Positions 8,845 to 23,133 of a stretch of 40,094 nucleotides of DNA are shown here, piece after piece. Position 1 is the first letter of the stretch; every line of letters starts with the position of its first letter. The stretch covers positions 1 through 40,094 of the IMG/VR virus record IMGVR_UViG_3300027985_000569; one strand, 5' to 3'. The notes below the pieces were generated by a model that saw nothing but the letters and a program-made list of their open reading frames with translations, did no database searches and was not told where the DNA came from. This DNA is from a virus. The position numbers were made by a program, and so were the translations under genes.

Positions 8845-9576
8845 TTACATTTTCATCTTATCCGCGAGATTTTTCGCAAAAGTAGATGATTGATTACTTT
8901 TCATTTGTGTTGCTTTGATCCGTTCTTGAAGCTCAATATCTTCCGGTTTTCTTTCCCCAAAATCCCTTTTTAAAGCATTTCTCATAAAAGCCTTATAATC
9001 CTTATATTGCTTACCTTTAGCTTTGCAATAATTATATAAATCCTTACCTTTCCCTCGTATTCCCTGCTCATAAACATTAAATTCCTTTGAAAACTCTGCG
9101 ATAACTTCTGCGGGTATATTTAAAAGAAAATTGATGTGGTTCTCTTTCTTTAATTCTTTAATTCTTACATTCTTACATTCTTTAGGTGTTTTCACTGGCG
9201 TTTCACTGGCGTTTCGTTGGCGTTTCATTGTCGTTTCATTTTGTGTTTCAGTTGATTGATATTGTTCCCAATTTTTGACTGTAATAAGCGAAAATTGGTT
9301 GCTTGTTTGAATTTCAATCATTGTTTCACTTTTGAACAAGTCAAGGATACGCTTGCAAGTGCCGCGCGGAACTCCCGTCCACTCTGAAAGTTGCTTTAAT
9401 CCACAAGTTAATTGCCCGGGTTTTATGGTAATCCTCTCACCTTTCCAAAGAATATCTCTGCTCTCGTGGTTGGCTTCCAATAAAAGCTCAATCCACACGG
9501 CGCGATAAGCCGGCTTTTTCATATAGGGATTTTTCCTAAGACTTCTATGTAGTTTTATCCAACCTTTATTTTCCAT
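8845..9576 (-). CDS. Replisome-organizer / DnaD-like replication protein (243 aa)
   Basis: The N-terminus MENKGWIKLHRSLRKNPYMK begins a winged-helix domain like those of phage replisome organizers and DnaD-type proteins, continuing through WKGERITIKPGQLTCG and LSEWTGVPRGTCKRILDLF (residues 45-90). A linker of charged and Thr-rich residues follows, then a C-terminal helical region (about 150-225) like that used for helicase-loader contact. Such proteins bind the phage origin, often in or beside their own gene. The ATG at 9576 is chosen. An in-frame reading from 9627 only translates the inverted repeats of the leader. The adjoining DnaA-box region strengthens the call. No helicase, primase or polymerase is present, so host enzymes are presumably recruited. 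Confidence 0.78.
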   Translation of the reverse strand: MENKGWIKLHRSLRKNPYMKKPAYRAVWIELLLEANHESRDILWKGERITIKPGQLTCGLKQLSEWTGVPRGTCKRILDLFKSETMIEIQTSNQFSLITVKNWEQYQSTETQNETTMKRQRNASETPVKTPKECKNVRIKELKKENHINFLLNIPAEVIAEFSKEFNVYEQGIRGKGKDLYNYCKAKGKQYKDYKAFMRNALKRDFGERKPEDIELQERIKATQMKSNQSSTFAKNLADKMKM

Positions 9577-9594
9577 ATTTATTTTTTCTAGCAA

Positions 9595-9696
9595 CCAAAA
9601 GGCCTCTTGCAGTATGGACGGGTGCATTACTACCCACTACAAGAGGCCTGTTGGCAACTACTTTTAAGTTGTGTGTAATGCTTTTGTCCATACTGC
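9595..9696. promoter_or_regulatory. Interleaved inverted repeats in the replication-gene leader
   Basis: Two inverted repeats interlock in the order A-B-A'-B'. A is AGGCCTCTTG at 9600-9609 with partner CAAGAGGCCT at 9640-9649. B is 9609-9630 with partner 9675-9696: arms GCAGTATGGAC/GTCCATACTGC and GCATTAC/GTAATGC with a 4-base mismatch between them. As RNA this is a pseudoknot topology. As DNA it could be an initiator-binding array. It fills the leader between the promoter at 9698-9726 and the ATG at 9576. Confidence 0.75.
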
Positions 9697-9971: not shown

Positions 9972-12026
9972 TTAAAAATTATAACCTTGCAAACGAACAT
10001 CTCCCTCGTCCGAGGAGAAAATCATATCTCCTTTTCCGAGCAGTTTTTCCGCCCCGGCCTCATCAAGCACAACCTGACTATCAATCGCTTTGGCGCAACG
10101 GAACGCAACCTTTGTCGGGAAATTAGCCTTGATTGATCCGGTGATTATATTGACCGACGGACGCTGTGTTGCGATGATTATATGAATACCGCAAGCCCGC
10201 GCCTTTTGGGCCAATAACAGAATGAATCTGCTTATTTCTTTTGAAATGCTTATCTCTTTGGTGAGAATTTTCTTGCCTTTTTTGTATTTCTTTACTATCG
10301 AATAATCGCCGACAATCAAATCTCCAAACTCATCAACAACGACAAATTTGTAGGGTATTTCAGATAAATTTTCAATGCTTCTGACCTTAGCCTCCGCCAT
10401 AATTTTATAGCGGTCATTCATCTCATCAACGAGCGCTTTCAATGAATAATAAATCTGTTCCGGGTCCGACTGATATTCGACGACATTTTTTGAATCTTGA
10501 AACATTGCCAACTCAACCAATTTCGGATCAAACAAGTGAAGTTCAACATTTTTGATTTTATTGAACTGTTCGATTATTGAGTTCAAAAATACCGATTTCC
10601 CCGAACCAGTGGCCCCGGCAACTAGAATGTGCGGCGCCTTTCTGACGTCGAAATAAAACACGTCTCCCATAACATCTTTACCAATAGCCAATTCAAATCC
10701 CCTGTTGACTGGCTTTTCTTCGATGAATTTGCGCTCTTTGCGCGGGACCTCGAATCCGACAAAAGTTGTGTTTGGTATAGGCGCCAAAACTCTAACGCCT
10801 GACACTCCTACAACCTGCTCGATGTCGGCAACATATCCCTCAATTCTTTTCATCTTCAATCCAATGCTCGGCTCAAATCGGTAGAGGTCGATATTCAACC
10901 CCTCGATTTTATCCACGAAATGCAGGACCATTCCGTGTTCGAGCAATTTGGTTTGAATTTGTTGCTCTTTTGACATATCCTTGTAATTTATTTTATTAGC
11001 GACCTCCATTGTCTTTTCAAGCCCTTTGAGAAACTTCTTCATCGTTCCGGCTTTTTGGATCTTCTTTTTCAAAAGCTCGGTGATGTTTTTGACGCGAAGT
11101 TTCTTCATCTCCTTTGCCTTTTCCTCCGGCATATCCAACCGGTGAATGTAGGCAATTATGGCCGTCTCATTATCCCAAAATGAAAGGATATTTGGGACAA
11201 ATACAGCCTCCCCGCTCAACGCTCGCGTCATATCGTCGTAGAAACGGAAGAAAAAGTCGAAAAACTGCTCATTTTCCTCGAATACAATCTCGTATCGCTT
11301 CACCTGTGGCCCTCCGTCGCGGTTTTTAGTGGTTTTGACCTCCTCATATACCATTGAGTGCGGTTTCTCGCCGTAGGCGCTAAAAACAAGCAAATAATAC
11401 ATAACTGATTGAATGATTTTAGCTCCGTCAATCTTATCCGGGTCCGAAAACGCGCGGGTAGTCTTGTAGTCTTTAATCACGAGGCGCCCTTTGTCGTCCC
11501 TGACAATCTTGTCGATGTATCCTTTTACCGGGACCGGAAGCGATAATTTTTCCCCTCTCCACTCAACGTCTATTTTTTCCTCCAATTTCTGCTCGGTATC
11601 AACGACATTTTCTTTCTTGTTGTTCTCGTTCAAATAGGCGTTGTAAGTGAAAGCGAAAATTTCTTGGGCTTTTTGGATATTTGGAACGGTGGAATTAAAC
11701 TCAACAAAGTTCGGGTTATATTCCTGTAAAAAATCCATTCCATATTGAAGCCCTGCCTCGACCTGCGTTTCCGGTTCGCTCTGATAAAAAATATCCATAG
11801 CGGCGTGAAACGCTCGACCAATTACCGATGAAATGCTGTTGGCGGTGTCGATATTGTCCCCGTTGATATACCGCACTTTGAACATTATCGGATTGACTGA
11901 AAACTGGACCATTGAAGAATAAGAGTAGTGTGTGAGCGGAAACCCATCAATCACTTCCTGCTTCTTCATTCCCTTGATTATTTTCGGCAGTTTCGACTTA
12001 TATTTTATTTTTCTTGTTTTTGCCAT
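9972..12026 (-). CDS. RecB-like PD-(D/E)XK nuclease fused to FtsK-type DNA-pumping ATPase (684 aa)
   Basis: There are two recognisable parts. Residues about 27-225 have RecB/Cas4-family nuclease features: LTHYSYSSMVQFSVNPIMFK, the histidine in GRAFHAAMDIF (His74), VKGYIDK (Asp172), VIKDYKT (Asp186, Lys188) and a following QSVMYYLL (Gln206). Residues about 370-684 are an FtsK/SpoIIIE motor: APIPNTTFVGFEVPR, Walker A GATGSGKS at 471-478, Walker B FVVVDEFGDL at 561-570 and ATQRPSVNIITGSIKANFP from 619. The FtsK gamma DNA-reading domain and membrane anchor are absent. It starts 5 bases after recT, so it probably supplies the processive exonuclease that makes single strands for RecT. A packaging or host-DNA-degrading role is an alternative. 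Confidence 0.9.
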   Translation of the reverse strand: MAKTRKIKYKSKLPKIIKGMKKQEVIDGFPLTHYSYSSMVQFSVNPIMFKVRYINGDNIDTANSISSVIGRAFHAAMDIFYQSEPETQVEAGLQYGMDFLQEYNPNFVEFNSTVPNIQKAQEIFAFTYNAYLNENNKKENVVDTEQKLEEKIDVEWRGEKLSLPVPVKGYIDKIVRDDKGRLVIKDYKTTRAFSDPDKIDGAKIIQSVMYYLLVFSAYGEKPHSMVYEEVKTTKNRDGGPQVKRYEIVFEENEQFFDFFFRFYDDMTRALSGEAVFVPNILSFWDNETAIIAYIHRLDMPEEKAKEMKKLRVKNITELLKKKIQKAGTMKKFLKGLEKTMEVANKINYKDMSKEQQIQTKLLEHGMVLHFVDKIEGLNIDLYRFEPSIGLKMKRIEGYVADIEQVVGVSGVRVLAPIPNTTFVGFEVPRKERKFIEEKPVNRGFELAIGKDVMGDVFYFDVRKAPHILVAGATGSGKSVFLNSIIEQFNKIKNVELHLFDPKLVELAMFQDSKNVVEYQSDPEQIYYSLKALVDEMNDRYKIMAEAKVRSIENLSEIPYKFVVVDEFGDLIVGDYSIVKKYKKGKKILTKEISISKEISRFILLLAQKARACGIHIIIATQRPSVNIITGSIKANFPTKVAFRCAKAIDSQVVLDEAGAEKLLGKGDMIFSSDEGDVRLQGYNF

Positions 12027-13570: not shown

Positions 13571-13915
13571 ATGAAACAAAAATTGCCTGAAAAAGAAATC
13601 CAAAAATTCATTCTCGACTACCTTTTAACGTGTAGAAATGGGTATTTTTGGCGCAATAACACCGTCGGAGTTTTCGACCCAACAAGAAAGCAATTCAGAA
13701 AAAACGCCCAGCAGGAAAAAGGGGTCGCCGACATCTTGGGGATATTCAACGGAAAATTTATTGCCATAGAGTGCAAGGCTTCCGGGATAAAAACATTGCG
13801 CCCCGATCAAGAAAACTTTAAGGAAAGATTTGAAAAATCCGGGGGTATATTTTATTTAGCAAACGACATCGACGAATTTATAAAATGGTTTGAGGCCGGT
13901 ATAGCTCAATGGTAG
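13571..13915 (+). CDS. VRR-NUC family nuclease (114 aa)
   Basis: Stand-alone VRR-NUC (PD-(D/E)XK) nucleases resemble Holliday-junction resolvases and the nuclease of FAN1. The active-site pattern is present: Glu8/Gln11 in the first helix, GVADILG (Asp54), IAIECK (Glu67, Lys69) and Gln80 in RPDQENF. This is the only protein gene on the plus strand. It has no ribosome site and probably no leader. Its last seven codons and stop lie inside the tRNA-Thr gene, so the message and the tRNA cannot both be made intact from one transcript. A branched-DNA resolving role in recombination or packaging is inferred. Confidence 0.9.
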   Translation: MKQKLPEKEIQKFILDYLLTCRNGYFWRNNTVGVFDPTRKQFRKNAQQEKGVADILGIFNGKFIAIECKASGIKTLRPDQENFKERFEKSGGIFYLANDIDEFIKWFEAGIAQW

Positions 13916-13965
13916 AGCAATTGTTTTGTAAACAAAAGACAAGGGTTCGATTCCTTTTATCGGCT
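13895..13965 (+). tRNA. tRNA-Thr (anticodon TGT)
   Basis: The acceptor stem GCCGGTA pairs with TATCGGC, the D arm is GCTC/GAGC, the anticodon loop is TTTGTAA with TGT at its centre, and the T loop is TTCGATT closed by AAGGG/CCTTT (one G-T pair). The anticodon stem has an A-A mismatch at 27-43. CCA is not encoded. The first 21 bases overlap the end of the VRR-NUC gene. Confidence 0.92.
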
Positions 13966-13971
13966 CATAAT

Positions 13972-14043
13972 CCGCGAGTAGCTCAATGGTAGAGCGTCTC
14001 CCTGTTAAGGAGAGGGTTCTAGGTTCGAATCCTAGCTTGTGGG
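13972..14043 (+). tRNA. tRNA-Asn (anticodon GTT)
   Basis: The acceptor stem CCGCGAG pairs with CTTGTGG (with G-T pairs), the D arm is GCTC/GAGC, the anticodon stem TCTCC/GGAGA encloses CTGTTAA, and the T arm is CTAGG-TTCGAAT-CCTAG. All canonical stems form. CCA is not encoded. Six bases separate it from tRNA-Thr, and a terminator follows directly. Confidence 0.95.
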
Positions 14044-14047
14044 CAAT

Positions 14048-15409: not shown

Positions 15410-15521
15410 TGCCCCAGCCAGTCCCAAAAATAAGGGTTCCGAAAAGCGCAAAAGCGTATATCGCCCATAAGAGATATTTCATTCCGGTCCAAAAAATCTC
15501 TGTCAGATTAAATTTGTTCAT
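15402..15521 (-). CDS. Small membrane protein overlapping the giant gene (39 aa)
   Basis: Hidden small gene. It starts MNKFNLTEIFWTGMKYLLWA, and its ATG lies within the last codons of the 2541-aa gene (14-base overlap), suggesting coupled translation. Residues 14-34 are hydrophobic and can span the membrane once. Possible roles are a second holin or antiholin, or a small virion membrane protein. The function is not shown by sequence. Confidence 0.6.
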   Translation of the reverse strand: MNKFNLTEIFWTGMKYLLWAIYAFALFGTLIFGTGWGIE

Positions 15522-18500
15522 AGACGTTTGCGCTTATAACTTTGTTGTCGTAAAGGTCATTGATATAATCGTAAAATTCTTGGTCGTCCATTTCCAATTT
15601 GAATTTTTTGAGCATTTCAACTTTGGCCGCGTTGTTTTTAGCTTTCAAAAGCATTTCTGTTTTGGTTCCGGTTCTTTGCCTGATTTGCTCTTTCTTTACC
15701 TCTGTTCTGATGAGGTTGGTTTTTTTGTAGTCTTCAATGCTGTTTTCCGGGTCGAGTTTCAATTCTTTAACTACGGCGCCCACAATGTCCTCGGTATCGG
15801 ACCCCTCTTTTACCATATCCTTAATTGTTTCCTTTTTCTGCAATTTCTGCTTGGCCGCTTCTTTTTCAGATTTCTTTTGCTTGGTATATTCCTGCTCTTG
15901 CAATCCATAATCACTAACCTTTATCAATCTGTTGAATAATGGGGTCAGTCTCAAAGTTGTTTCGACGGTCGTATCTTTCGAGGTGTCATAAGTTGCAAAA
16001 GATGAAACTCCCATTGTGTTTGTCGTCCACTGCAACATCTTTTTAAGCGAGCGCCAACCTCCTGCCTTGAAAGTCTGGTCGTCAATCACATTTCTACCGC
16101 GGAAATTATCATAAGGATTTCTACCTGATAAAAATTGTGTCCAGTTTGAAAGAATGTCTATTGCCGGAGTGACGGCTGGCAACTGTCCGGCTCCAATCGC
16201 GAACATATCGTTTAACTGTGAAAGCTCTTTGTCCTTGGCAAAGTTTGCCATTTTCCAAAAGGCGGCCGAGATCAAGCGAGCTGTTTCATCGTGAGGTATT
16301 CTCATATAAATCGCTTTTCCGTCAGAAGTCGTCCCGAGCGGGATAATGATATAGTTCGTTTTGTCGTATTCTGAAATTTTGGAAAAGAATTTTTTAATAG
16401 GACCGTCTTTGTCTTCGTCGTCTCCTCCTCCAAGTCCAAACAATGCGTCGATTATTCCAGCAGAAGCGGCAAACATCATCGCTTTAGGAAGCAAATCGAC
16501 TTTGACAGTTTTCCACCAAAAGCCTGCCCTTGTTTCTGGGCTGGTCGCAACCTTATAGTCTGATTTCAACCCCTCTTTCATAATGTTTGAAAAGACAAAA
16601 ATTGCATTTGTGGTCCGGGTGTGGATACCTTTTCTTGTCCAATTCGGGGTTCCGGTATAGTCTCGGATATTCGCATAAAGCGATTTTCCAGTCTCTCCGG
16701 CTTTTATTCTCACCTTTGCGCCTGCAATTTTAGAAACGATTTCAAACGTATTGGAAGCCAAACGCATACCATCCAAAATTCTCAGCACATTTTTAATTAC
16801 AACTTTGCGGACAACTTTTGGCAGTTTTGATGTCTTTTCATCAACTTTGATAAGCCCGTATCTTTCAAGCATTTTTCCGAACTCGTCCTCGCGAGCGTCA
16901 AAATTATAGTCGTTTATCGGCGCCATTATTGACTTATTTTCAACAAGCGAGCGCGTGAACTCGTCCATTTGAGCCTTTCTCGCATATCGGAAAGATTGAG
17001 GCAAACTGGTAGCATACGCTTTCAAAAGTTTCAAAACAGTCGCGTTTTTGATGTTTTTGTAATTTCTCTTAAAGTCTCGAATAGGGTTGAACGCCAAAGC
17101 GAATCCCATATTGTAGGTAGTGACGAGCGGTTTGAAAACATTGTTATTGAACATATCAACGGCCGCCACAAGTCGATTGATGTCTCCAATTGAATCACGG
17201 TCAAATCTTTCCGCAATATACGGATCCACGTCGTAGCTTTGAAGTTTTCCGTCTTCCAAAAGTTGAATCGTTCCTTTTCCTTTGGCTGGTTTGAATATGC
17301 GGAGTTTTCCGTCGGTGGTTATACTCTTTGATTTTACTGCTTCATTTTCTTTGGCCAGCATTTCAATCGTAGTGTTTTTGGCTCGCTGGTATGCGTTCAA
17401 TCTATTAAGCGACAATGTTTTTATGATTGTGGCCGTGAAAGGATTTCCAATTTCTTTGAATGTTCCGACCTGTTTTTTGATTGTGGCCGGCATATTCTCC
17501 TCGATATAATCAACAACCCGGAAAGCGGCATAAGTGTCTTTGTTTGGCTTGATTGTTTCCTCAAAAATCTGTTTGTTATAACTTCCAACGCGCACAGCCT
17601 CCTCAACGGAAGCAAAGACTTTTTCGTGAAAGGTTTTCATTTTTTCCTCCAACATCTTGAAGTTTTCCTCACCAACTGATTTTTTGAAGTATTCCAATTG
17701 TTCCCGGGCGCTGTCCGGTGTAAATCCGTAAGGGTTAGCGACGTCGCTTCTGTCGTTCATTATACGATTAAGCACGAGATATTCTCCCATATCGTCCATT
17801 GTCATACCGGCCAATTCTATCGGCTGGACAACCTCTTTGTTCATATCATCGAGCAAGAGATAATTTTCATTGTCCACAAAAGGCAATTCATCGAGCGCAA
17901 ATTTTGGGTTCTTTTCTTCCGGCATAACCAATCCGTTTGCCTCAAAATCACGCTGTCTTTTTAATATAGGATAGTTTTGATCATCGAGTTGCTGTCTAAG
18001 TCTAGCCCAAAAATTCTTATTCCCGGCCTTTCTTTCTTCGTGTTTTTGCTTGATGATTTCCTCTGCCTTGGCAAACCCCTCGCGCAAATCCTGCTGTCTT
18101 GCCTTAATGACTTCCTCTCTGTTTCCGTCAAGCAATTCTTGAAGATTGAAAAATGTTTGTTTGACGGCCGGCTTATTATCCAAGAACTCAAAAAATGCGT
18201 TGTAAAAATTCGGTGCTTTTTCCTGCAACAGTCCCGGAGAATTAAAGAGAACAGAAAGCGCGTCGGCATAAATTTCAGAATTGCTTTCCCTGTATTTAAT
18301 AAATCCCGGAGACGCCTTTTCCTTATCGTATGGGTGCCAGTATTCGGAAAGCGCAATCAATTCGTTTTTCAAATCCCTTGCTTTTCCAAATCTTCCGCCT
18401 CCCATTTCGGCCGGCAAGGTGTGTTTCAGGTATTTTGAAAGTGTGGCAATATGAGCAAGAATGTTTCCCTTTTTCATTGCCTTATCGGGCAAGAAATCGA

Positions 18501-21500
18501 CGACGTGGCCTAATTCGTGGGCCAAGACGGCTTTTGCCTCCCTCAACTTGTTTTCTTCGAATAGAGACGCCAAAATACGCACGCGTAGCGTTCCAGTTTG
18601 CGCGTCTCCGAGGCGATTGCCCCTAAACGACCGTTTGACCTCCGGGAACTCTCCCGTAAGCTCACGGACCATTTTAACAAGCTCCGGCAATTCCAGCGGC
18701 TTGATATGCTCCATTCCTCCTATTCCCTCGCCGAATTTCTCCTCAAAATCAGCAAATTCACCGCGAGCATAGAAAGTCGGTTTGTATCCGTAATTTTCGC
18801 TAAATTCTTTCGCTGTCTTCTCGTCCGTCTTTTCTTCCGGGTTTATATCGAATGAAATTCCGCGCGACGAAAAACCGGTCTCTTGATCGAGTATCCGTCC
18901 GCGCATAAATCCGTTTTTTTCAAGCTCCGCCAAATAGCCCTTGCTTCTTGCAAATCGAGAACCTCCTTGTTGTGAGAAAACCTCGTCAAAAATGTTCTGA
19001 ACTTTTATCCTGTTGGCAGTTTTTTCAAAAATCTTGCTGTTCAAATTATTCAATGCCAAGACGATTTTTTCAATCATCTTTTTGTAAGCCAAGAAAATTT
19101 TGTTTTGTGATGACTTTCCTTTCATTTCAATTTGCCGGTTGATTGCTTCGTCGGCCATTCTTTTATCGAGGTCTTTTCCTTTGTGGTCTTCAAGATACTG
19201 ATTCAATGTTGTTTCATTTCCAAATAAATTGACAAGCTCTCTTTTGGAAAGTTTTTTATACCAATCAACAATTTTTTGCTGGTCCTCCGATCCGAGCAAT
19301 GAAAAAGCGGCGTGTCTTATTTCGTGTTTAAGCGTCAAGGCAAATTTTTCCTCCGACATATCGCGAGCCATTGCAACCGTGTTTTTACCGTCGAACCAAC
19401 CACCTTGATAAAGTTCTTTGTTTTTCAATTTCTCCGATGTGATTGATTTGAAAAGTTCAAAAGTCAAAACCTTTTGAATGTTAGGGTTTGTTTCCGATGT
19501 AATTCTTTTAATAAGTTCTTTCGCCTGTGAAGTCGTCAAAAGTTTTTCCGATTTCTTTTTATCGGTTATGTTGGCAAAAATATCATCGACATTGATTTCA
19601 TTTTTTCCAGTCAATGCGTCGAGTTCTTCTTGCCAATAATTTTTGTGAAGTTTTTTAGATTTTATTGCGTCGTATATTTCCCTCGTTTTTTTCAAGTCTT
19701 TTGAAAATCCTTGCATATTTTCACGCAAGAACATTCCGAGGTCGTCCGACGGTATTCCCTTTATTTCTCCCTCTTGGCTTCCTTTAGCGCCTCCACTAAC
19801 GCTTTCTTTAATTTGCGCTTCCTGCGCATTTTGAGTTGTTTCTTTGGCATAGATTTCATTATAATTATTGATTATATTTTCTCGCATTTTAGAGGTGTCG
19901 ATTCCTGCTCGGCTATCAACTTCATCTAAAAGCAAATTGTAAAATTCGCGTTGTTTGCTTTTGTTTTTGTCCGGGAAAGAGACCTCATCAATGTTCATCA
20001 ACCCCCCCATAACTTTATCAAAAAGTTTTTTCGAGCGATATTCTTCCGGTATCCATTGCGGAAATTTTGATTTTTCACCAATCACTGTTGGCTCTCCTCC
20101 AACCTTATTGTCGTCCCAAACAAAATGTTTTTGGCCAGCTTCGGCAATATCCAATTCTGCATATACTTCATAAAGCGCTTTTTCAACCTTTTCCTTATTT
20201 TCGGAATATACTTTTTGCAAATCATTTTCGCTTGTTTTGATAGCTTCCTGCAATCTAGGTTTAATAAACTCATCAACTGCCTTTTGATTCTTTTCTACAA
20301 GAACCGCTTTCCTCCCGGCCTTTACTGCCTCCGCTCCCGTCACGCCTGAACCGGCAAACGGATCAAGAACAGTCCCACCCTTTTTTGTCCCTTGCTTTAT
20401 AAGCGAAGAAAGAAGCTCGGCCGGTTTTTCAGTTTGATAACCTTTCGGACGAATAAGTTTAAAATCAAGTTTTCTTTTCTCGTCTATCTCGTCAAATTTT
20501 CCGCTCTTAGTTAAAAGAATAATTCCCTCCGGTGGTATTTCAGCACCGCGCATATTTCTCACAACTGTCAACCCGTCTTTTTGCAATTTTGTAAGCCCTC
20601 CCTCGGCCACTGGCTTAAATCCTTTTTCAATTAAAACGTCATTATATTGCAACATCTTTTTCAATCCCGACGGCGCTTTTGAATACATATAATATAAAGG
20701 CGTGTTTTCGTCTCTAGCAATCTTTGAAACCGCGTCCATAACCGTTTTAAATTCATCGACGCTTATTGTTTCAAATTTTACGCCTCTATTCCCTCCCGTG
20801 ACGGCTGGGGTTTTGTAAGGAATATCCAAGAAAATCATATCAGCTTTTAATCCGTCCTTGGCCAATTTCGGCAGTGTTTCGATCGCGTCTCCGGTATGGA
20901 CAAAGGCGACGTCTTGACCGTCCTTGTTTAAAATATAGACACCCTTTTCAACGCGCTCGAATGTTCCCTCTTTTGCTCCAACTCCAAGAATACGCCTGAT
21001 ATTAGGCTCTAAAATTTTTGTTTCTTCCGCAATCTCTTTGATTGATTTCGGTTTTTCCTTGATTGCTTCTGCCACTTTTTCCTTTTGCGTCTGTGTTGTT
21101 TCGACGTCTTTTGATTCTACCGTATAGCTTCCGCTCTTTGTTTTGACTGTCATCGCGTTTCCACTTTCTGAAAGACTGGTTATTTTCCCCGTCTCTTTTC
21201 CGTTTAAGGTGTTTATGGAAACCTCGTCGCCAACATTGAAAGACGGCGCTGTTTGTGCTTGCGCGCTATTGAAAAATTTATATGCCTGATAACGAATTTC
21301 TCGAGATGATACTGTGTTTTTATTTTCAAGAATTTTTTGCTGTTCCGGTGAAAGAGTTTTTGCGTATTCTGTAAAATAAGATTCAAAATCATTGTAGTCG
21401 GCCGGATTGACATTTTCGGCCGGTTTTACTTCTTGCGGTTTAGGATTTTTCCCGTCGATTATTTCTTGAACTTTGGCGGTCAAATTATCAAGTTTCGCCT

Positions 21501-23133
21501 GCACTTCCGGGTCTGCTCCTTTTGATTCATTATTAGCCCAATCTATAATCGCGTTAGCTCCTGCTTTCACGGCTTCATTTCTTGTATTGAATAATTCGGT
21601 ATTTGAAAAATTACCGGAAACACTAGCCGGTCCAACGTCTGCCGAAAATCTAAAAGCAAATTTTCCGTCCTGATATTTGACGGTTTCAACTTCGGCAAGC
21701 GGGTTGGCCTGCTTACTATCTGAAAGATAAAGCGGACGCTCTTTCACGGCATTTTGATAATCTCCTAATTTGTCTTGAAGATCAACAAGCTCCGTCAAAG
21801 AGTTTTCGTCCGTTGATGTTTCGATTGCTTTTTCCAGCTTGGCCACTTTATCGCGAACGTCTGAAAAGTTCTCGTTTAATTCCCCGACTACTTTGGGACC
21901 TGTTTTTGGCGCTTCCTCTCCTCCGACGGTCGCTTTATTCGGTTGTAGGCTAGGATTGACTTCTCCTTGCCCCTTTCCTGCCACCATACCGGCGCCTGTG
22001 GCCGTTCCGGTGATAATACCTCCCGATATACCTCCAATCAAGAACTCGTCCACCATACCCCCATTTTTGACGTAATCTGTGAGGTCTGCGACGACTGCCT
22101 GCTTTTCCGCTTCCGTTTTAGCGTTTTTGTAGTCATTGGCATATTTTAAGAAAGATTGAGCCGGTTCCGTTGTTCCCTCAACCAAAAAACCTTTTCCTGT
22201 TTCTTTCATCAATGTTTTAAGCGTTGCCTCTCCACCCTCTTTCAAAACGCTTTTTAGCGCGGCCTCTGCAACGCCTGAAATTACAGTGTCGCCCACTGTA
22301 TCAATCGCGATATTCCCCAAGTTCTGAACTTGTCCTTTTTCCTGTCTTTGACTTTCTGCCGAGATTGCCGCGAAGTATGTCATTGCTACCGTCTGGCCGA
22401 CTTTTGGATTTCTCGACAAAATAGATGTTCCAATCGCGAGAAGTGTTCCGACGGCCGACTGAACACCACTGTCTTGTATTCCGTAAAGTATGCGCTCCCA
22501 ACGTGGATTTGTCGGGTCGTTTCTTTCTGCTAAAAGAGATGAATATGCCTCGTCGAAAGTATCGTCTCCGATCGCTTTTAATGAAGCCCACGCTTTCAAC
22601 GGCAAATTTGATGTTCCGCTTGCCACTGTTCCGGTGATTTTCTTTCCCGTTTCCGTATTGAGCCATTGAATAAGCGGGGTTTTTTCGGCTGTTGCTTTTT
22701 CCGCTTCGGAGCGAATTTGCGCTTTTTCTTCTTCCGTTTTTGCTTGATTATATTTTTCAAGTCTTGGATATTCAACTTTTAATTTTCCTTTTTCATCGAC
22801 AGTATAATTTTGCTCTCGTCCGGGATTGAAAAGACTTTTTTCATTCATCCTAAAAGAAACATCGTCCCACCAGTTTTTTAATTTGCTGGCATTTCTCGAA
22901 ACAAAATCGACGCTCTTGTCCCAAACGCTCGGCTTGTTTTCGTCTGCCTTTATTCTCGCCTCATTATCACTTTGGATTTTATCTTGACGCGCCTTTTCTT
23001 CGTCGATTCTCTTTTGAGCTTCTTCGACTTGCGTTTTGGCTATTTTGTTTGCTTCCTCCCAAGAGGAACCAATCTCGTTGGTAGAAGACCCGAAACGCTT
23101 ATTTTCGTCGTCCCAAGTTTTATATTTATACAT
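15508..23133 (-). CDS. Giant polyvalent virion-associated protein with winged helix, DNA methyltransferase and two zincin-like sites (2541 aa)
   Basis: It fills about 19% of the genome. In order: a charged N-terminal coiled-coil part; hydrophobic Ala/Gly-rich segments around 205-395 that may insert in membranes; a beta-rich part near 635-690; a winged-helix-like segment (KSIKEIAEETKILEPNIRRI); and a beta-type N6/N4 methyltransferase with FLDIPY at 768-773 (motif IV, DIPY instead of DPPY) before LDPFAGSGVTG at 923-933 (motif I). HEIRH at 1270-1274 and HELGH at 1539-1543 are HExxH zinc-protease motifs. Residues about 2000-2350 resemble large-polyvalent-protein domains of phages. It is probably packaged and injected, protecting DNA and acting on host proteins. 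No tape-measure pattern is obvious. Confidence 0.85.
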   Translation of the reverse strand: MYKYKTWDDENKRFGSSTNEIGSSWEEANKIAKTQVEEAQKRIDEEKARQDKIQSDNEARIKADENKPSVWDKSVDFVSRNASKLKNWWDDVSFRMNEKSLFNPGREQNYTVDEKGKLKVEYPRLEKYNQAKTEEEKAQIRSEAEKATAEKTPLIQWLNTETGKKITGTVASGTSNLPLKAWASLKAIGDDTFDEAYSSLLAERNDPTNPRWERILYGIQDSGVQSAVGTLLAIGTSILSRNPKVGQTVAMTYFAAISAESQRQEKGQVQNLGNIAIDTVGDTVISGVAEAALKSVLKEGGEATLKTLMKETGKGFLVEGTTEPAQSFLKYANDYKNAKTEAEKQAVVADLTDYVKNGGMVDEFLIGGISGGIITGTATGAGMVAGKGQGEVNPSLQPNKATVGGEEAPKTGPKVVGELNENFSDVRDKVAKLEKAIETSTDENSLTELVDLQDKLGDYQNAVKERPLYLSDSKQANPLAEVETVKYQDGKFAFRFSADVGPASVSGNFSNTELFNTRNEAVKAGANAIIDWANNESKGADPEVQAKLDNLTAKVQEIIDGKNPKPQEVKPAENVNPADYNDFESYFTEYAKTLSPEQQKILENKNTVSSREIRYQAYKFFNSAQAQTAPSFNVGDEVSINTLNGKETGKITSLSESGNAMTVKTKSGSYTVESKDVETTQTQKEKVAEAIKEKPKSIKEIAEETKILEPNIRRILGVGAKEGTFERVEKGVYILNKDGQDVAFVHTGDAIETLPKLAKDGLKADMIFLDIPYKTPAVTGGNRGVKFETISVDEFKTVMDAVSKIARDENTPLYYMYSKAPSGLKKMLQYNDVLIEKGFKPVAEGGLTKLQKDGLTVVRNMRGAEIPPEGIILLTKSGKFDEIDEKRKLDFKLIRPKGYQTEKPAELLSSLIKQGTKKGGTVLDPFAGSGVTGAEAVKAGRKAVLVEKNQKAVDEFIKPRLQEAIKTSENDLQKVYSENKEKVEKALYEVYAELDIAEAGQKHFVWDDNKVGGEPTVIGEKSKFPQWIPEEYRSKKLFDKVMGGLMNIDEVSFPDKNKSKQREFYNLLLDEVDSRAGIDTSKMRENIINNYNEIYAKETTQNAQEAQIKESVSGGAKGSQEGEIKGIPSDDLGMFLRENMQGFSKDLKKTREIYDAIKSKKLHKNYWQEELDALTGKNEINVDDIFANITDKKKSEKLLTTSQAKELIKRITSETNPNIQKVLTFELFKSITSEKLKNKELYQGGWFDGKNTVAMARDMSEEKFALTLKHEIRHAAFSLLGSEDQQKIVDWYKKLSKRELVNLFGNETTLNQYLEDHKGKDLDKRMADEAINRQIEMKGKSSQNKIFLAYKKMIEKIVLALNNLNSKIFEKTANRIKVQNIFDEVFSQQGGSRFARSKGYLAELEKNGFMRGRILDQETGFSSRGISFDINPEEKTDEKTAKEFSENYGYKPTFYARGEFADFEEKFGEGIGGMEHIKPLELPELVKMVRELTGEFPEVKRSFRGNRLGDAQTGTLRVRILASLFEENKLREAKAVLAHELGHVVDFLPDKAMKKGNILAHIATLSKYLKHTLPAEMGGGRFGKARDLKNELIALSEYWHPYDKEKASPGFIKYRESNSEIYADALSVLFNSPGLLQEKAPNFYNAFFEFLDNKPAVKQTFFNLQELLDGNREEVIKARQQDLREGFAKAEEIIKQKHEERKAGNKNFWARLRQQLDDQNYPILKRQRDFEANGLVMPEEKNPKFALDELPFVDNENYLLLDDMNKEVVQPIELAGMTMDDMGEYLVLNRIMNDRSDVANPYGFTPDSAREQLEYFKKSVGEENFKMLEEKMKTFHEKVFASVEEAVRVGSYNKQIFEETIKPNKDTYAAFRVVDYIEENMPATIKKQVGTFKEIGNPFTATIIKTLSLNRLNAYQRAKNTTIEMLAKENEAVKSKSITTDGKLRIFKPAKGKGTIQLLEDGKLQSYDVDPYIAERFDRDSIGDINRLVAAVDMFNNNVFKPLVTTYNMGFALAFNPIRDFKRNYKNIKNATVLKLLKAYATSLPQSFRYARKAQMDEFTRSLVENKSIMAPINDYNFDAREDEFGKMLERYGLIKVDEKTSKLPKVVRKVVIKNVLRILDGMRLASNTFEIVSKIAGAKVRIKAGETGKSLYANIRDYTGTPNWTRKGIHTRTTNAIFVFSNIMKEGLKSDYKVATSPETRAGFWWKTVKVDLLPKAMMFAASAGIIDALFGLGGGDDEDKDGPIKKFFSKISEYDKTNYIIIPLGTTSDGKAIYMRIPHDETARLISAAFWKMANFAKDKELSQLNDMFAIGAGQLPAVTPAIDILSNWTQFLSGRNPYDNFRGRNVIDDQTFKAGGWRSLKKMLQWTTNTMGVSSFATYDTSKDTTVETTLRLTPLFNRLIKVSDYGLQEQEYTKQKKSEKEAAKQKLQKKETIKDMVKEGSDTEDIVGAVVKELKLDPENSIEDYKKTNLIRTEVKKEQIRQRTGTKTEMLLKAKNNAAKVEMLKKFKLEMDDQEFYDYINDLYDNKVISANVYEQI

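Follow-up and report, generated by a model that had tools for sequence, protein, structure and literature searches.

A nuclease-FtsK fusion paired with RecT-family genes in uncultured viruses and its predicted role in phage recombination

An uncultured virus encodes a PD-(D/E)XK nuclease and an FtsK/SpoIIIE-type ATPase in a single chain of 684 aa, directly downstream of a recT gene. Both domains have intact active sites, the fusion has a single origin, and its pairing with a RecT-family gene is constant among the viral loci that were compared. The fusion probably acts as an ATP-driven exonuclease that makes single strands for RecT, and thus as the nuclease component of a recombination module made up of two phage genes. 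The chances are roughly even that the pair is a phage recombination system of a new class that arose a single time, in Patescibacteria viruses: RecT would work with a single-chain, FtsK-powered resection machine, whose nuclease domain some Patescibacteria later captured as a chromosomal gene. To our knowledge, all known pairs of a single-strand annealing protein (SSAP) and an exonuclease are motor-free, and the motor-nucleases of cells, AddAB and HerA-NurA, consist of several subunits. A single-chain FtsK motor with a RecE-like nuclease that travels with RecT would reveal how phages rebuild end resection, and it offers a simple protein for testing.

Domain architecture and conserved residues

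The initial annotation of the window (the whole 40,094-bp virus record) read the chain as a PD-(D/E)XK nuclease fused to an FtsK/SpoIIIE ATPase, and Pfam, AlphaFold and homologues confirmed this reading (Table 1). Residues 34-268 matched PDDEXK_1 (PF12705; E = 6.8e-15) with 56.1 bits at a curated cut-off of 22, which places the domain among the RecB-like PD-(D/E)XK nucleases. Matches to FtsK_alpha (PF17854; residues 336-428, E = 1e-10) and FtsK_SpoIIIE (PF01580; residues 444-625, E = 4.3e-31) were also over their cut-offs, and the motor comprises an FtsK alpha domain and a RecA-like core with Walker A, Walker B, sensor glutamine and arginine finger. Two features of full cellular FtsK/SpoIIIE translocases were absent: no fusion protein has the C-terminal gamma winged-helix domain, because all of them terminate 4-10 residues beyond the conserved RLQ of the motor, and the N-terminus is occupied by the nuclease domain, without a membrane anchor.

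Table 1. Features of the fusion locus and of related stand-alone nucleases (window positions unless a contig is named).
Feature	Position	Strand	Evidence or remark
DnaD-like helicase loader, downstream of fusion	8845..9627	-	phrog_2514, E 1.9e-33; context only
Nuclease-FtsK fusion gene, 684 aa	9972..12026	-	ORF; Pfam; at least 53 full-length homologues; model pLDDT 83.3
FtsK RecA-like motor, residues 444-684, without gamma domain	9975..10697	-	
Walker B DE, residues 565-566	10329..10334	-	
Walker A GATGSGKS, residues 471-478	10593..10616	-	
FtsK alpha domain, residues 336-428	10743..11021	-	PF17854; aligns to 2ius/2iut motor from residue 349
Low-confidence helical linker, ~residues 283-344	10995..11180	-	pLDDT ~47-67 over most of 281-350
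PD-(D/E)XK nuclease domain, ~residues 31-275	11202..11936	-	H74, E145, D172, D186, K188, Q206, K231
recT, single-strand annealing protein, 322 aa	12032..13000	-	PF03837, E 9.7e-37; TIGR00616
Stand-alone nuclease, L226	12178-13065	-	
Stand-alone nuclease, L227	9859-10758	-	
Stand-alone nuclease, L231	2344-3210	-	
Stand-alone nuclease frames, L232-L237			

The family alignment contained 24 rows, 23 of them spanning the nuclease, with relatives down to about 30% identity. The five nuclease residues that had been named from the sequence (H74, D172, D186, K188, and Q206) are present and invariant in 23/23 nuclease-spanning rows, together with E145 and K231. The Walker motifs had been called intact, and K477/S478 of Walker A and D565/E566 of Walker B are indeed invariant in all 24 rows, while R610 and Q621 of the motor are strictly conserved. 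In a HMMER alignment, K477, D565/E566, R610, and Q621 pair with positions in P. aeruginosa FtsK that we take to be Walker A, Walker B, the arginine finger and the sensor, respectively. An Fe-S cluster as in AddB or Cas4 was rejected, because in most members the nuclease domain has too few cysteines, and that of the window has none.

Predicted structure

AlphaFold modelled the full fusion, with the family alignment, at a pLDDT of 83.3 and a pTM of 0.50, so the relative placement of nuclease and motor is unsure. Modelled alone, the nuclease reached a pLDDT of 89.3 and a pTM of 0.88, and both the PD-(D/E)XK fold at the N-terminus and the FtsK motor at the C-terminus were found in the predicted structure. 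Near the top of the VIA-align matches of the nuclease were AdnA (Z 15.8), E. coli RecE (Z 15.2), AddB (Z 13.8), and Dna2 (Z 13.6); lambda exonuclease scored Z 9.0. These models indicate that the fusion nuclease is of the recombination type, with a predicted fold like those of AdnA, AddB, and E. coli RecE. The motor model matched E. coli FtsK with a Z of 38.1 (rmsd 1.8 A, 315 residues), ahead of TcpA and HerA proteins, and gave a Z of 20.6 with the HerA of 9x1m.

The FtsK part could alternatively be mainly a scaffold or a ring-shaped processivity clamp for the exonuclease; ATP would then drive loading or switching and not sustained translocation. Neither a gamma domain nor a membrane part accompanies the motor, and conventional RecT-type partners are established to need no ATP; in lambda exonuclease, the trimer itself forms the ring that acts as a processivity clamp. 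However, the strict conservation of Walker A, Walker B, R610, and Q621 and an FtsK motor structure kept at 1.8 A make a mere clamp quite unlikely.

Gene context

recT lies upstream of the fusion, and its stop codon TAA is followed by GACTT and then by the ATG of the fusion, a contiguous junction that agrees with the gap of 5 bases reported in the initial annotation. The DnaD-like loader belongs to the same replication/recombination block as recT and the fusion, and a VRR-NUC-like ORF is located upstream of the fusion at 13571-13915. Genes for an SU10-like portal, a terminase and a capsid protein are located at 33-40 kb, and the window carries a 144-bp direct terminal repeat. This repeat, together with the ability of FtsK/HerA family members to pump or segregate DNA, would fit a role of the fusion in genome-end or concatemer processing for phage DNA packaging or segregation instead of homologous recombination. 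Such a role is nevertheless highly improbable, since the fusion sits in the recT/helicase-loader block, distant from the terminase and portal genes at 35-40 kb.

Distribution of the fusion and its link to RecT-family genes

Two IMG/VR scans with the family alignment yielded at least 53 uncultured viral contigs with a match across both halves of the fusion (29-63% identity), a lower bound drawn from the best 80 matches of each scan; one of them (L033) begins inside the nuclease, where the contig is cut. These 53 other contigs with the same fusion rule out chance or an assembly artefact as its source. When the surroundings were searched, as the initial annotation had proposed, a RecT-family gene was found upstream on the same strand in 52/52 fusion loci having upstream DNA, which are not 52 independent events because the fusion phages are related. 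The gap between the two genes was at most 50 bp in 36 of the 52 loci (median -5 bp) and larger in the other 16, up to 2374 bp. Ten divergent partners were confirmed as RecT-family proteins by Pfam and PHROGs (PHROG 148, 2780/252, or 561-like); the type of SSAP varies between loci across three HMM groups, whereas the fusion stays constant. In a control set of 50 FtsK-only phage records, RecT was present in five and was never within 6 kb of ftsK. This old and conserved fusion, always accompanied by a RecT-family SSAP, fits the two-component recombination system with a motor-coupled nuclease that was suggested at the outset.

None of the 50,697 deposited phages and 72,556 plasmids searched held a full-length fusion; their matches span the FtsK half alone. 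A literature search, with most subscription journals outside its reach, found no description of a RecT-linked nuclease-FtsK fusion. The top match, an 8.4-kb 'Bacteriophage sp.' record (MT838987.1), contains bacterial chromosomal genes, an ordinary ftsK and, by eye, rpsB and tsf, and is probably host DNA in the phage collection. Bacillus phage Jayan was examined for split nuclease and FtsK genes beside an SSAP gene, and it is no Rosetta-stone case because the two genes are ~5 kb apart and no SSAP is annotated in the 10-kb region inspected. Judging by BFVD names, separate nuclease and FtsK proteins may be present in ctHip2 and two accessions next to it (I4AZH2, I4AZH4). One fusion phage (contig L018, 2858-4516) encodes a second P-loop ATPase of 552 aa, HerA-like by eye, upstream of recT.

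Comparison with known systems

As in the RecE/RecT and lambda exonuclease/Red-beta pairs, the SSAP gene of the fusion locus directly adjoins a gene for a PD-(D/E)XK exonuclease, and the RecE nuclease of E. coli is close to that of the fusion in fold (Z 15.2). Neither RecE nor lambda exonuclease contains a motor or requires ATP, whereas the fusion joins its exonuclease to an FtsK motor in one chain. The fusion locus therefore shares with the two-component systems the adjacent genes in one operon, but not the motor-free exonuclease. AddAB, AdnAB, and RecBCD also couple a RecB-family nuclease to a motor and feed recombination, and AdnA is structurally near the fusion nuclease (Z 15.8); however, their motors are SF1 helicases and that of the fusion is FtsK, which sets it apart from this group. 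The motor of the FtsK/SpoIIIE-like protein gp196 of Mycobacterium phage Wanda is ~37% identical to the fusion motor, but such phage proteins are without a nuclease domain and have no RecT nearby, and their motors fall outside the clade of the fusion motors.

HerA-NurA shares with the fusion the coupling of a nuclease to an FtsK/HerA-superfamily translocase, which is hexameric in HerA-NurA. It consists of two proteins, the NurA nuclease being RNase H-like, whereas the fusion is a phage-borne, RecT-linked single chain with an FtsK alpha domain and a PD-(D/E)XK nuclease. The fusion is thus no HerA-NurA member: its motor matches FtsK with FtsK alpha best (Z 38.1 vs. 20.6 for HerA), and its N-terminal domain does not have the NurA RNase H-like fold. 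The nuclease of HerA-NurA is placed on the ring face that carries the HAS domain, and the archaeal T. kodakarensis complex cuts both strands, for which a role in foreign-DNA destruction and not in resection was proposed (PMC12977600).

In DndH defence proteins, an FtsK-type motor, in some cases with FtsK-alpha, is immediately preceded in the chain by an REase domain; these proteins have ~1700 aa and eight domains, including a TRD, an inactive methylase and a type II-like REase (PMC10853773). Because DndH contains a PD-(D/E)XK-FtsK fusion, the idea of a nuclease-FtsK fusion is not without precedent (PMC10853773). The initial statement that no such fusion is known accordingly holds for the deposited phages, plasmids and literature searched, but not for nuclease-FtsK fusions in general. 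DndH and SspH act in phosphorothioate-dependent defence and belong to bacterial defence operons with no RecT link, whereas the present fusion is a RecT-linked phage gene, has two functional modules in 684 aa, and resembles SspH in the motor alone, which excludes it from the DndH/SspH group. Parts and principle thus have precedent in DndH and HerA-NurA, and the pairing of a nuclease-FtsK chain with RecT is new; a chain reduced to two modules, with a nuclease of the recombination type and a link to RecT, is unmatched in the records and literature searched.

The main rival to a role in recombination is an ATP-driven DNA destroyer, because the T. kodakarensis HerA-NurA cuts both strands (PMC12977600). 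The motor would then feed double-stranded DNA to the nuclease, both strands would be cut, host or competitor DNA would be degraded, and the link to recT would reflect an early-gene block. The REase-FtsK fusions of DndH work in restriction (PMC10853773), and SspH motors are the best PADLOC matches of the fusion. However, this similarity is confined to the motor, the chain contains neither a modification nor a target-recognition domain, and the nuclease fold is of the recombination type. In addition, a RecT-family partner is kept at every fusion locus with upstream DNA (52/52), even as the SSAP type changes. DNA destruction is therefore rather unlikely, and resection for RecT is preferred.

Proposed mechanism

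In the preferred reading, the C-terminal FtsK alpha/RecA-like part would form a hexameric ring on double-stranded DNA and be moved by ATP, with the nuclease tethered by a flexible linker to the alpha-domain (N-terminal) side of the motor. The loss of the gamma domain would leave no FtsK-type sequence-directed loading, and loading at DNA ends is therefore assumed. At an end, the nuclease would digest the passing DNA and expose a single strand, which RecT from the gene just upstream would coat and anneal with homologous DNA. This annealing may serve recombination-dependent replication, repair, or concatemer formation. The hexamer, the ATP-driven movement, the strand polarity, and the hand-off to RecT are all predicted features.

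Origin and probable hosts

In a quick tree with 28 phage and 22 bacterial FtsKs, the 55 fusion motors grouped in a single clade (SH-aLRT 99), and the fusion thus arose once; the main groups of the nuclease tree are largely those of the motor tree. The Patescibacteria sample comprised 384 genomes from a single class of the phylum to which a 'Candidatus Parcubacteria' genome belongs. One of them (G854) carries recT and the fusion, which are 70 and 62% identical to the window proteins, respectively. On its contig C95 (L230 1-6444), recT comes directly after nifS and an iscU-like gene, and behind it lie the fusion and a gene for a helix-turn-helix replication-type protein; the nifS-iscU pair is conserved without phage genes in three genomes of the G854 family. 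The contig looks like a prophage boundary, and Patescibacteria are therefore the probable hosts of this phage clade, although the phage genes on it may stem from a binning or assembly error. The fusion phages, which are uncultured, probably infect these ultra-small bacteria.

Nine further Patescibacteria genomes of the sample encode a stand-alone nuclease of the fusion subfamily, in frames of 277-339 aa. In the two genomes inspected over 19.5 kb, neither RecT nor FtsK was found near this gene, and the surroundings were ordinary chromosomal. The stand-alone nucleases nest inside the fusion nuclease tree with moderate support (87-91), which suggests that the host captured them from the phage fusion. 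A search for the fusion in Bacteroidota (198 genomes) and Bacillota (199 genomes) gave no match at 1e-15, an absence that holds for the sampled phyla only. Patescibacteria have few genetic tools and their viruses are poorly known; the fusion can serve as a marker in searches for patescibacterial phages and could possibly provide recombination tools for their hosts.

Other genes of the window

A pair of tRNA genes, tRNA-Thr(TGT) and tRNA-Asn(GTT), occupies positions 13895-14044 and overlaps the end of the VRR-NUC-like ORF. The phage encodes an RtcB RNA ligase (992-2203) and a peptide deformylase (2457-2987), and an RtcB-like ORF is present too on the fusion contig L098. The region from 15508 to 23133 encodes a 2541-aa protein with motifs that by eye are methyltransferase-like and protease-like, apparently resembling a polyvalent protein.
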